The position numbers and the translations under genes were made by a program. A stretch of 36,153 bases of DNA from Gemmatimonadaceae bacterium (lineage in GTDB: Bacteria > Gemmatimonadota > Gemmatimonadetes > Gemmatimonadales > Gemmatimonadaceae). Below, piece by piece: positions 250 through 27,134 of the stretch. Each line of letters opens with the position of its first letter. Positions within the stretch are counted from its first letter, which is position 1. The notes under the pieces are model-generated. The model saw only the letters and a list, made by a program, of their open reading frames with translations, had not been told where the DNA came from and did not search any database. The stretch covers positions 1 to 36,153 of the forward strand of contig DASXKV010000036.1 in assembly GCA_036496605.1 (NCBI GenBank), given 5' to 3'.

Positions 250-1404
250 GGCGGTTTGGTTCATCTCAACGGGGGCGGTCGTGCCCTGAGCGGCAGCGTG
301 GTCAACATGGTTGGCGAGGGACGAGAAGTGGTTGGTGAGGAGTGCGATGTGAACGGCGGCGCATCACATGGCTTCTGGGATTGTTGCTATTGCCGTCGGC
401 AACGGTGCGACGCGATGTGGGATGATCGACATGGACTCGCGGCGTTGTCGATCTCGTCGGCGGAGTGATGGATGTCGTCGCCGGAGTTGTTGATCTCGTC
501 GGCGAAGTGAGTAGTGTCAGCTATAGTCCGATCACCTCGAGCTGGACATCGGTTCATCTCGACGGTGATCGCGTGAGTCCCTCGCGTACAGGGTGAGACG
601 CCACCTGTACGGCGAGCAGAGGACTCCGAACGGCGGTGAATTCGAGCGGGACGTCGCGCTATTGCACCCAGACGCGTGTGCATTCCTGCTGTACAGCCGC
701 GCATTCCTGCTGTGCAGCCGCGCATTCGTGCTGTACAGCCGCGCATTCGTGCTGTACAGCCTCGCATTCGTGCTGTACAGCCTCGCATCCCGGCTGGACA
801 GCCTCGCATCCCTGCTGGACAGCCTCGCATCCCTGCTGGACAGCCTCGCATCTCTGCTGGACAGCTTCGCATTTGTGCTGGACAGCGTCGCATCCTTGCG
901 GCGACGCAGTCACTTCAGTCGGGACCGAGAATCATCTCTTCCGGACGGCTGTTGATCCGTGCTGGACGATGGTCAGCTCCTGGTGGACGGCCGTTCATTC
1001 CTCCGGCACGACGAACGATTCCCTCGGGACACCGATCCGTTCGAGCGGGACGAGTTGCATTCTCGCCTGTACACCGATCAATTCGACCGGCACTGCTCTT
1101 CGTTTCATCTGGACAGCCATCAATTTGTCCGGTACGAGCGTTCGTTCCGTCGGGACGAAATGGAGACTCTTCGATACAAGATTCAACGCTCGCGGTACGC
1201 GATTCCATTCGATCTTGTCGGTGTCGCGATACGAGTGGCGGCCCTGATCATCGAGCGAACGAAACGTTCGCGGCGGTTGTACGCGTCTCAGTTTGCGCGG
1301 CACGAGCTTCTAATTCCTCGCCGCAGCTCGTCGCGCTCGGTGGATCCGCCTCATGCTCGTCGGTACGGCGAAGCGATCGACTGGCGACGCGTCAGGGTGA
1401 GCAC
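250..1404. repeat. Phase-locked 21-bp tandem repeat array, about 55 units
   Basis: Ten units starting at 680, 701, 722 and so on to 869 are nearly identical (pieces GCATTCCTGCT and GTACAGCC or GGACAGCC). Taken from the frame beginning at 691, the same 21-bp register continues in both directions without an indel. G[GT]AC or a one-base variant recurs at 544, 586, 607, 649, 796-880, 922-985, 1027-1069, 1111-1153, 1195, 1279 and 1363. Units diverge progressively away from the centre. Because 21 is a multiple of three, several frames read as heptapeptide repeats. The plus frame is open from 637 to 1425 (RIPAVQP-like units). A minus frame is open from 1247 to 387 except for one TGA at 915-917 (RGCTARM-like units). 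No good ribosome binding site or conserved start decides a frame, so I do not call a gene. It may be a decayed repeat-protein gene or a non-coding array; 21 bp is also two helical turns. Confidence 0.85.
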
Positions 1405-4264: not shown

Positions 4265-4299
4265 CCCTCTACCCTCTACCCGCTACCCGCTACCCTCTA
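4265..4299. repeat. Heptanucleotide tandem repeat at a convergent gene end
   Basis: Five 7-bp units, CCCTCTA twice, CCCGCTA twice, then CCCTCTA, run from 4265 to 4299. They lie between the end of the rightward amidohydrolase pair (4219) and the end of leftward susD. The TAG stop codon of susD (4297-4299, complement of CTA) lies inside the last unit. Similar C-rich heptamer repeats occur at the convergent ends near 16200 and 27120. Confidence 0.75.
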
Positions 4300-5622
4300 C
4301 GCGTTCCGATCGATGCACCCGTGGAAGTTGGGATTGTTCCTCTCACTGATCGGGATGATGATGTTGACGTCCGTCCCGCGCATGAGATTGTCCTTGTGAT
4401 ACGCCCCCGTCGGAAAGACCGTTTCCGGTCCGCGCCCGTACTGCCTGACGAGCCGGCGTAGATCGCCGAGGCGATGGCCGGTCATGAAGAGCCAGAAGGC
4501 GCGCTCGTGGAACATGAGATCGACGCGCGCCGTCGCCGTTCCCGGGTCCGTCAGCGGTGCGAGGCCCGACACCGTCGCGCGCGCGACATTCAGCTTCGCG
4601 AGCCAGGTGGTGGCGTCGCCAACGGCCAGCGCTGCCTCGGCCTCGATGAGTCGGGCTTCGATCCCGCTCGCCTGCACGACCGGTGAGGAGAGACTGTTGT
4701 ACTCCAGGAAACGAATCATCGGCGTCACGCCGTCGAAGCGCGAAAGGCCGCTACTCTGAACCGGCAGACGCGGGTCGTTCGCCGACGCGAAGTTGAGCCC
4801 ATTCTGACCCTCGGTATCCGAGACGGATAGTCGGTCGGCGTTGAAGATGTCCGTGAACATGTAATTCTTCTCGCGGTCGGTCGCTACGCTGTGGTATGTC
4901 TGGTAGACGAACGACGTCGGGACCGCGGCGACCGCGGCGGCAGCGGCCGCGAAGTTGGCTTGGTCCACGAGCGTCCGCCCGCGCAGCACCGCCTCGAGAC
5001 TCGTGACAGTCGGATCGCCATTCGCGTTCGACTTCGCCTGATCGAGCCGAGTGATCGCGCGTGCAAAGATCGCCGCGGTCGTGAGCGGCTGCCCATAGAC
5101 GAGGGTGGGCTGGGTCGTGCTGAACGGCACCCCCGAGCAGTAGTCCTCGGCGAGCAGGATGTGAACGAGCGCCGAGATCGCGTACATCTCGCCAATGCGC
5201 GGGTCCTGCTTGTTGAACTGCGTGAGCGCCGCGGCAGCGCGCTCGGCGCCCTCGCGCGCGCGGTGCAGGTCGAGATACATCTCCTGCCACGCGTCCGCTT
5301 CCTCGCGCACGTTGCGGAGATCCATCTGCTTCACTTCTGGGGGCGTCCCGCCGAAGCGGGCTTCGTCGGTGAACCACGCACCCGCCTCGACGAGGGCGGG
5401 GCCGGTGAGGCCGCTCCCGTCCACCGACAGTGCGAAGTCGCCGATGGCGCCGTTGTACAGGGCCGCCGCGCCTTGCGCGGTGTTCACTGCGCCCGGGTCG
5501 ATCACGTCTGGGTTCTCCGTCTGGAGCAACGAATCTGCCTTGCACGCGGCGATCGTGAACGCGACGGCGACCGAGAGGGTCGCGCCGAACGCTGCTCGCG
5601 CGAATGTGATGGTCTTTCTCAT
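4297..5622 (-). CDS. RagB/SusD-family outer-membrane lipoprotein
   Basis: 441 residues. I chose ATG 5622 rather than 5631 because GAGAGG then sits nine bases upstream; at 5631 it would touch the start codon. A lipoprotein signal ends in the lipobox IAAC with the acylated Cys at 27. The body is the alpha-helical, TPR-like SusD fold. It includes a DLHRAREGAERA helix, a VHILLAEDYC helix, and a C-terminal region (ERAFWLFMTGHRLGDLRR, then a late PISERNNP) typical of the family. SusD proteins cap the SusC transporter at the cell surface and hold the ligand, often a glycan or peptide. It lies 15 bases after susC and is surely co-transcribed. At about 440 residues it is at the short end of the family. 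Confidence 0.9.
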   Translation of the reverse strand: MRKTITFARAAFGATLSVAVAFTIAACKADSLLQTENPDVIDPGAVNTAQGAAALYNGAIGDFALSVDGSGLTGPALVEAGAWFTDEARFGGTPPEVKQMDLRNVREEADAWQEMYLDLHRAREGAERAAAALTQFNKQDPRIGEMYAISALVHILLAEDYCSGVPFSTTQPTLVYGQPLTTAAIFARAITRLDQAKSNANGDPTVTSLEAVLRGRTLVDQANFAAAAAAVAAVPTSFVYQTYHSVATDREKNYMFTDIFNADRLSVSDTEGQNGLNFASANDPRLPVQSSGLSRFDGVTPMIRFLEYNSLSSPVVQASGIEARLIEAEAALAVGDATTWLAKLNVARATVSGLAPLTDPGTATARVDLMFHERAFWLFMTGHRLGDLRRLVRQYGRGPETVFPTGAYHKDNLMRGTDVNIIIPISERNNPNFHGCIDRNA

Positions 5623-5637
5623 GAGACGCATCCTCTC

Positions 5638-8600
5638 TTAGAAGCCAAGGTTCAGGCGCACCGTGTAGATGCGCGGCGGCGCGAGCTGAACGAAGTTGTA
5701 CACCGCGGCATCGTCGCCCTGGGTTGCGATTTCCGGATCCCAACTCGTGAATTTCGACCACGTCGCCAGGTTTCGAGCCGTTAGGCGCACGATCGCCGAC
5801 GTGGCGCGAAGACGGGCGACGTAACGCTCCGGGATGTTGTAGCTCATCGACAGCTCGCGGAACTTCCAGAAGGACGCATTCTCGATGTACGCACCGATGC
5901 CATTGCCGCCGGCGATCGCCTTGGCCTGATCGAACAAGGACGCCGAGGGATCGTTGATCGCGCGGCAGTTCTGCGTCGGCACGCACTGGAACCACTCGTT
6001 GACGTTCAAGTTTGCGAAACCTGCGCGCCGATCGAGCAAGCCGGAGATGGTAAGACGCTTGAACAGCGTCAGGCTGGGGGAGAAGGAAAGCGTTCGCGTC
6101 GGCACCGTCGAGCCGCCGAAGAGCGTCGAGTCCGAGACCGTGACTTCGTTCGGCTCGATGATGCCGTTGTGGTTCGCGTCGCTGTAGGACGTCATCTGCG
6201 GCCACCAAAGGCCGAAGAGCGGATAGCCGACGCGATTCTGGTAGCCGAAGCCGGTGATGGGCGGCAGACCACCGAGGTCGACGAGCTTGTTGCCATTCTG
6301 CGAGGCTTCGACGTTCAGGTCGAGAGCGATGTTCTGCCGGTCGACCAACCGCCCGTTGAGCGAGAGCTCGACCCCTTTGTTGGTGACGACGCCGATGTTC
6401 TCGATGCGCGAGACGGTCGCACCTAACGAGCCTGGCAGCACACGCTGGATCAGCGCGTCCGTCGTGCGCTTGTTGTAGTACGTGAGCTGGAGGTTGGCGC
6501 GTTTGCCGAGGAAGCCGGCGTCGAAGCCGCCCTCGAACTCCTGCGAGCGCTCCGGCTTGAGTGCGTCGTTGCCCAATCCAGCGAGCGTGACCGCCGGCTG
6601 GTCCACGCCGAAAATTGCCGTCGTGATCGGCGAGAGATATTGCAGCGCATCGGTCGGTCCGGGCTGCTGGCCGGAGACCCCGTATGCGCTCCGGAATCGC
6701 AGCTCATCGAGCCAGCGCAGAGCACGGAGCCCGCTGCCGTTGTCGATTGCGACCCAGGACGCAGAGATCTTCGGATAGGTGGCCGACCGATTCTTCTTGC
6801 CGAAGGCGCTGTTCTGATCGTAGCGCAGCGCGCCAGTAAGGAAGAATCGCTGGTCGAGACCGAACTCCTGCTCGACATATTGGCCGAGCGTCTTGCTTTC
6901 CACGGTCTTCTCGCCCGAGCTCTTGATCGCACCCGCGTCGATGCGCGTGATCCCCGGCGGGAAGACGTTGGCGGTGTTGAGCGTGCCATCGAGCTGGTCG
7001 CGAATGAACTGCACGCCGACAGAGGTCTTTGATTCGATGCGGCGCGTGAGCTCGCGCGTCGCCGTCGCCCCGAAGTCAGCGGTGTATTTCGCGCTCACGA
7101 ACTTGTTGATCGTGCGCAGACCCTCGCGATTCAGATCGCAGATCGTGCACCCTTCGCCGGACGCGTTGTTTGCCTCATCGGAATAGCCGACGTAATCCAA
7201 TCCGAGCGTGCCGCGCGCCGCGAGGAAGCTCCATGGCCGCCAATTACTCTGCAGGCTGTTCGTGAAGCGACTGTCGCGGCGATAGATGACGTCCGCGAAC
7301 CCCTCCGCCGGCCGCGCGAACCCCCATGGATTGCTCGCCTTCGCGGGATTGGCGCTGCCGAAGAGCGCGGCGCCGAGGATGCCTTGGGTGTTGTCGCCCG
7401 TCTGCGGCAAGCGATTGTCGCTGTTCACGAAGCCGCTCGACAGCGTGACGTCGACGTTGTTGTTGAGGATTGCACTGAGGTTGCTTCGGAGATTTAACCG
7501 CTGCAGCTCGTTAGGGTTGAGCTGCTCCCCAGGCAAAATCGACACACCGCGCTCCTGACGAAGGAACGCTTGCTCCATCTGCGGCATACGGAGCGTACCA
7601 TCTTCATGATCAGCGGCACCCGAAACAAAAAAGCGTACCTGCTCCGAGCCACCGTTGATCTGGATGCCGCGCTCGGCGCGGTAGCCGGCTGCGAGCGGCG
7701 TCGTGCCCGCGTCTTGCAGCAGGTTCCGCGAGTAGAGTTGCGTGATCGTGCACTGATTCTCGGCCTGCTGCCACGGCAAGCATTGACGAATGCCGCCTGT
7801 CGCCTTGTCGGTGCCCTGCGAGTAGTACTGGCCGGGATAATCGGTCACGTCCTTGTTGTAACCTTCTTCGTCGTAAAGCAGCCACTGCGTGCGACCCGGC
7901 TTCGCATGCTTCGTCGTTATGCGAATGACGCCATTCGCCGCTTGTGTGCCGTACAACGTCGCTGCCGACGGGCCCTTCACGATCTCCATGCTCTCGATCT
8001 CGTCGGGATCGATGTCGTTGAGGAACGAGGGATGACCGCCGCCGACGTATACCGTGCCGTCGAGTCGGGGCGAGCTCGTCTCGACCTTGATGCCGTCGAC
8101 GTAAACCAGCGGGTCGTTCGAGAGCGAGGCGCTGCTCAACCCGCGGATGCGAACGCGCGATCCCGAGCCGACGGTGCCGTTCTGTTGTATCAACGTCACG
8201 CCGGAAACCCGGCTGTTGAGCAAATCCTGCATGTTCGTTATCGGCGCGCTCTCGACCACCTTCGCCGCGTCGACCTTGGCGACGGTATTGCCTAGCTCGC
8301 GCGTGCGTTGCTCGCCGGTAGCCGTCGTCACCACTTCCTCGAGCACGAACGGAACGTGGCTGACGATGAAATCCGCGGTCGTCGATTGACCGCCAACGAT
8401 GGCGACAGTGCGCACTGCCGGACCATATCCCACACGGTTGACGCGGACTTGATGGGTGCCCGCCGGAATGGCGCGGATCGTGTAGACTCCCGAGTCGTTC
8501 GTGACTGCGCCGAGACTCGAGCCAGTAACCACGACAACGGCGCTGGGTACCGGTTGACCGTTGGACTGATCGGTGACTCGGCCCGTCAGGCTACCCTGGC

Positions 8601-16178: not shown

Positions 16179-16230
16179 CTAGGGGCACCAAAGCCGCCCC
16201 TAGCCCCTAGCCCTAGCCCCTAGCCCCTAG
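16179..16230. repeat. Hairpin plus heptamer tandem repeat at a convergent gene end
   Basis: CTAGGGGC (16179-16186) pairs with GCCCCTAG (16196-16203) across a nine-base loop. The right arm opens a tandem run of CCCCTAG units at 16197, 16204, 16217 and 16224, with one 6-bp unit (CCCTAG) at 16211. It fills the space between the rightward Nim-type gene and the leftward hydrolase gene and may act as a two-way terminator. Confidence 0.6.
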
Positions 16231-16234
16231 CCAC

Positions 16235-27062: not shown

Positions 27063-27134
27063 AGAGGGCAGAGGGTTGTGGGCTGAGGCAGTGTGTCTAC
27101 GCGCTACCCGCAACCCTCTACCCTCTACCCTCTA
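27063..27134. terminator. 20-bp inverted repeat with heptamer repeats at a convergent gene end
   Basis: The arms 27063-27082 (starts AGAGGGCAGAGGG) and 27107-27126 (ends CCCTCTACCCTCT) are complementary at 18 of 20 positions, with a 24-base loop. The right arm runs into three CCCTCTA units (27114, 27121, 27128). The TAG stop of the leftward NirK-like gene (27132-27134) falls in the last unit. A two-way terminator for the convergent genes is the simplest reading. Confidence 0.6.

Follow-up and report, generated by a model that had tools for sequence, protein, structure and literature searches.

A non-coding 21-bp satellite array and the gene family that it precedes in Gemmatimonadota

The window analysed here (that is, the whole stretch of 36,153 nucleotides, which is the entire contig C36 of a 5.97-Mb genome and ends inside a minus-strand gene) carries a non-coding satellite of 21-bp units, which makes up one module together with the gene lying downstream of it. 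In every class feature that was compared, the array fits the published and unexplained bacterial satellites of constant size and variable sequence; the satellite class is already known, and within it the gene-linked module is a new form. The remark in the initial annotation that no named family exists for the array was overtaken by the literature, given that satellites of this kind (20–21 nt, with variable sequence) have already been published (PMC8161180). Such satellites have so far been reported without function or partner, and the linked family is a first candidate partner gene for them. The gene family and its occasional operon appear to be undescribed, and a literature search of incomplete coverage found no description of a gene link to 21-bp arrays. 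Now that such satellites can be tied, within one phylum, to a single family of proteins whose structure is modelled with confidence, and show a 10.5-bp conservation signal, experiments on binding and helical phasing can ask what holds the unit length, and the gene–array pair shows where to look in other phyla.

The array and its linked gene

By core-profile phase test, autocorrelation and indel-tolerant decoding, a phase-locked array of approximately 48 units of 21 bp (without strand assignment) occupies positions 385–1393. On the plus strand the unit reads roughly ATTCnnnCGG[GT]ACnnC, of which the short motif G[GT]AC is kept across units. Tandem Repeats Finder places a homogeneous core, also unstranded, at 680–893 (period 21, 10.2 copies, 92% matches, zero indels; consensus GCATTCCTGCTGGACAGCCTC), which confirms the nearly identical central units described initially. 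The autocorrelation and profile analysis proposed for the flanks likewise recovered the array on both sides: the top lags are 21, 42, 63, 105 and 84 in 250–679 and 42, 63, 105, 126, 84 and 21 in 890–1404, and a profile built from the core alone, scored at the 21 possible phases of each block, returned the core phase as the best of 21 at 511–679 (z 5.8), 890–1015 (z 7.1), 1016–1141 (z 7.0), 1142–1267 (z 4.4) and 1268–1393 (z 2.9), and as rank 2 at 385–510 (z 2.6). This signal was absent at 139–258, at 259–384 and to the right of 1394. At 250–384 (unstranded), a probable decayed left edge of the array, the core profile has no match and only lag-21 autocorrelation responds (0.44 against a mean of 0.29, s.d. 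0.04). On the basis of both tests the array is firm for approximately 385–1393 and probable to 250; the array of about 55 phase-locked units first claimed for 250–1404 is therefore real, but firm only for the 48 or so units given above. The further claim that the register runs into both flanks without an indel agrees with the 21-bp rows, in which no net indel is seen by eye through 1372; the register is weaker to about 250. Columns decay unequally in the right flank, the prominent ones being 9, 11, 13 and 14.

A non-array leader at 139–249 (unstranded) separates the gene start from the array and is homologous in the paralog on contig C33, whose alignment with the window begins at 101. On the far side, the module is bounded by a neighbouring plus-strand ORF at 1596–2813 (from the ORF list), which lies outside it and, by eye, looks like an amidohydrolase. 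The window also contains short arrays of 7-bp units at 4265–4300, 16196–16232 and 27096–27134 (CCCTCTA, GCCCCTA, TCTACCC), and 7-bp repeats like these seem to follow genes elsewhere in the same genome.

The linked gene lies at 1–138 on the minus strand (138 to 1 in its own direction), so that the array sits directly upstream of it; this gene, at the left end of the window, was missed by the initial annotation. Its first 46 codons (MKYQENAVLDALLRAQPFLDENAASLTGVDLTAARKRLDDVVVTFT) are present and the remainder is cut by the contig end. Contigs C44 and C46 start with the same sequence as this gene end, and the assembly therefore broke within a repeated module; the C44 copy is intact and, counted with the first codons from the window, encodes 250 aa; the C46 copy has decayed.

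Upstream of nearly every testable family gene, 21 is the top repeat lag. Among 39 modules with approximately 11 kb of context each, an upstream array was found in 31 at z > 4.5 and in 28 at z > 5.5, and a downstream array in 4 and 3, respectively; the array lies downstream of the gene at L066, L076 and L087 and about 2 kb upstream at L090. Arrays accompany this one gene family in different genera and in two bacterial families, and zero 21-periodic segments were found in the 200 kb scanned from a relative that lacks the family. Array and protein similarity give a Mantel r of 0.21 (p < 0.001) in the same orientation and 0.07 in the opposite orientation.

The family proteins are approximately 240 aa long, all-helical and basic (31/32 members; median pI 10.1), and an all-helical AlphaFold model reaches a pLDDT of 96 and a pTM of 0.81. 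Most end in -AA: an Ala-Ala C terminus follows a low-complexity P/A/T-rich tail in 33 of 46 family genes (loci L019–L104), compared with 11 of 177 control ORFs (6%), and could be a putative degradation or docking signal. The C44 protein has zero Pfam or NCBIfam matches above cut-off, Rep and Par domains are absent from the linked protein in these databases, fold and domain searches found no known DNA-binding domain in it, and Foldseek against the PDB and viral models returned nothing at E ≤ 0.001. VIA-align gave helical-bundle matches only, with HBM-type sensor domains such as that of McpS as the best (Z 9.9, 176 residues aligned). We take this likeness as a shared helical arrangement only, given that the Z is below the informative level for helical bundles and often reached by helical models by chance, and that the sequence matches are weak (Pfam HBM, PF16591, in 2/32 members, best E 0.0068).

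Fixed unit length and free sequence

The 21-bp unit length is the same across unrelated loci, and the unit consensus is unrelated between most of them; no unit motif common to all loci was found, units being shared only by close paralogs, and not by all of these. The window's own genome holds window-type, C38-type, C4-type and C67-type units, with related arrays on four other contigs. Indel-tolerant decoding shows few indels in the main array segments, and size differences between the window and its paralogs total 21 or 42 bp; gaps of a single base occur now and then. Homogeneous stretches occur anywhere in an array, not always in the middle, and some arrays contain two homogeneous sub-arrays; of the repeated central expansion suggested initially, the gain and loss of whole units stands, but the central position does not. 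Arrays turn over between conserved flanks. In one genome, two 94%-identical proteins have flanks that are homologous on both sides and gene-proximal sub-arrays that are unrelated, and the adjacent protein therefore cannot read most of the unit. Of 48 arrays, 38 have columns that decay unequally (p < 0.05).

Column conservation peaks at 10.5 bp, a statistic taken across 48 arrays whose size varies with the null model (z 5.5 against column permutation; z 2.7–3.9, p 0.001–0.008, against block permutations that keep local clustering). It has no 3-bp component in these 48 arrays (z approximately 0), in contrast to base composition, which has a weak one (z approximately 3). Together with the recurrence of a 21-bp unit at unrelated loci, the 10.5-bp component favours the reading of the unit as two helical turns, one of the two offered in the initial annotation.

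Arrays also occur without the gene. In the own-genome census, which scanned 1.04 Mb of the 5.97 Mb, 4 of 6 strongly 21-periodic segments had no family gene nearby, and arrays without the gene lie on C33, C8, C4 (at 201 kb and 204 kb) and C67 (at 73 kb). By eye, only the first gene codons remain on C33 (MKNKQNAVLDALLSR, then a stop). Either genes are therefore lost while arrays stay, or arrays can arise alone. In locus coordinates, arrays with no detectable family gene nearby lie at L121:1381–2100 and 4621–5820 (G000:C4), L140:2761–3780 (G000:C67) and L010:6241–7620 (G000:C8); on C8 and at C4:201 kb, units of two types take turns, forming a 42-bp higher-order repeat.

The class to which the array belongs was described in Bacillus by Subirana and Messeguer (2021) as non-coding tandem repeats of constant size (20–21 or 52 nt) and variable sequence (PMC8161180). 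In that work, 20–21 nt equals two helix turns, species differ in repeat sequence and so do the repeat families of a single genome, a short sequence is common to the repeats, and a protein that polymerises on DNA or a small RNA is proposed; its text, searched by word for genes that neighbour or flank the repeats, mentions none (PMC8161180). The arrays studied here share the length that is constant across loci and species (20–21 nt), the unconserved unit sequence with several same-length families in one genome, and the non-coding nature with a short motif kept within the array (in the window, G[GT]AC). Unlike the published satellites, they lie in Gemmatimonadota beside one gene family and sometimes its operon, their flanks have decayed past the repeat-finder threshold for approximately 300–500 bp on each side of the core, and they have recognisable conserved flanks and a 10.5-bp conservation component.

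Contiguous head-to-tail units with no spacers rule out a CRISPR array. Iterons, parS/parC-type centromeres and operator arrays are direct repeats of approximately two helical turns that set same-face sites beside a gene, usually in far fewer copies and with one conserved site matched by a Rep or Par protein. The present arrays likewise consist of two-turn repeats adjoining a gene, but they are not tied to any one sequence, and Rep and Par domains are missing from the linked protein. An iteron or partition array was rejected on the absence of any adjacent Rep or ParA/ParB-type gene, the conserved neighbours being DUF2188, membrane and cell-wall enzyme genes, and one with a single cognate site on the 94%-identical proteins beside different sub-arrays. 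Eukaryotic centromeric satellites keep their unit length while the sequence evolves fast, and have homogeneous cores and decayed edges. The arrays here resemble them in all these respects and differ in their 21-bp unit, their size (0.2–1.2 kb), their number (several per bacterial chromosome) and their gene linkage.

Candidate explanations for the constant length

Our best reading, held tentatively and at somewhat short of an even chance, is that the array is a same-face DNA scaffold for a protein that steps every two helical turns, the binding of which we infer. Such a protein would assemble along the array on one face of the DNA, with one protomer per two turns, and would read only a few columns per unit. 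Units bearing indels would break the register of the filament and be lost, and whole-unit duplication and deletion would be tolerated and lead to array turnover. The filament would cover the upstream region and may control or insulate the operon, a local effect being likeliest. The adjacent protein would be the first filament candidate, and another (for example, a nucleoid protein) could serve. We infer that unit length is held because assembly proceeds on one face with a two-turn step. The phase lock, size changes by whole units, the scarcity of indels, sequence turnover at fixed length, unequal column decay, the 10.5-bp component, gene linkage, the correlation of array with protein similarity and the basic protein all count for the scaffold. 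The lack of a known DNA-binding domain, the gene-less arrays and the three arrays downstream of the gene count against it, and its weakest point is that most of the unit sequence cannot be a target for the adjacent protein. That there is a dedicated system, in which the basic helical protein, or a polymer that it organises, would assemble with a two-turn step on a fast-evolving satellite beside its own gene and read spacing and a few bases, not a fixed sequence, we consider possible but doubtful; if true, it would explain constant-length, free-sequence satellites in unrelated bacteria.

Unequal exchange also gives very fast turnover, locus-specific units, arrays that are homogeneous in the core and decayed at the edges, and orphan arrays, and the patchy distribution and many fragmentary gene copies would equally suit a selfish or neutral satellite, in which replication or recombination favours 21-bp duplication, no function is served and persistence beside the gene reflects co-duplication. 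This explanation is nevertheless unlikely: it does not predict a length that fails to drift despite total sequence replacement, columns that decay unequally with a 10.5-bp component, or arrays that stay beside the same gene family in different genera and in two bacterial families. It seems quite improbable that the array is instead transcribed into a repeat-rich or processed RNA (a sponge, antisense RNA or leader) that acts as RNA, although Bacillus coagulans transcribes 52-nt satellites of broadly this kind (PMC8161180, PMC8625621) and the array is placed immediately upstream of a gene. A structured RNA was rejected on zero Rfam matches for the array and on folding that shows no excess for the two strands (mean z −0.5 and −0.8, 48 arrays); moreover, the core has no match to non-array DNA of its own genome, and an RNA would leave the 10.5-bp component without a reason.

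About as improbable is a contingency locus, in which slippage alters unit number and so tunes the downstream gene, much as phase-variable promoters work, and the 21-bp step keeps promoter elements on the same face. Whole-unit gain and loss between paralogs, the upstream position and flanks that are kept while the interior changes accord with it, but the arrays are far longer than known contingency repeats, are often so strongly decayed that slippage would be slower and in some cases lie downstream of the gene. That the array encodes, or until recently encoded, a heptapeptide-repeat protein, the other reading offered initially, is already contradicted and very improbable. It drew on the equality of 21 bp and seven codons and on long open frames, which do exist as described (plus strand 637–1425; minus strand 1247–387, with one TGA at 915), and stops are somewhat fewer than in column-shuffled arrays (520 versus 623). 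This deficit, however, falls on both strands and in no single frame, and several arrays carry stops in all frames. Codon-position substitutions are even between the window and C33, C69 and C67 (36/44/36, 32/31/25 and 28/27/24), and run 28/51/42 in the most diverged comparison (C8). On these stops and non-3-periodic substitutions, together with the missing 3-bp conservation, coding in any frame was rejected.

Distribution and downstream genes

A phylum-wide search found the family in 32 of 298 Gemmatimonadota genomes from two bacterial families, often in several copies; within Gemmatimonadaceae, the window's own family, it occurs in 25 of 179 genomes. Apart from the window's own genome, the family was found in MAGs of Gemmatimonadales and Gemmatimonadetes, on which basis the window was placed in Gemmatimonadota. 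It is patchily distributed, and many of its copies are fragmentary. Beyond the phylum, a first contig scan gave no family match, and a second brought up three contigs from Gemmatimonadota MAGs and a fourth from a MAG labelled Proteobacteria (L057, JADGRC010000392.1), the sole copy found outside Gemmatimonadota. Given that the family is absent from the other 283 genomes searched in the phylum of that MAG, this contig may be a binning error. Relatives may also occur in Acidobacteria, a suspicion on which we place no weight. Plasmids gave no match to the array or the proteins and viral contigs none to the family alignment, and a plasmid or viral origin was rejected on these searches.

A DUF2188 gene lies directly downstream on the same strand in 9 of 46 modules, and in zero control stretches. 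Other modules encode downstream a small protein that, by eye, appears to span the membrane, and a cell-wall or protease enzyme (Amidase_2, Muramidase PF11860, SLT or Peptidase_C70) or a sigma factor. From their predicted genes, some loci look like a lysis-type cassette, which most modules lack; varying lysis-like cargo was noted at L066:5893–7504, L084:5751–7311, L019:3571–3972, L078:5711–6481, L079:5745–6518, L023:998–1789 and L024:1022–1402. A sigma-70-like gene follows the module at four loci of genus g36 (L090:6149–7581, L091:3374–4548, L092:2469–4459 and L097:4084–4671; Pfam was run on L090 only), three of which have a second similar gene. In genus g23, a conserved block lies downstream of each copy of the family gene (L072:4494–4801, with counterparts in G106, G144, G595 and G217); it encodes a small protein of 79 aa and contains a palindrome.
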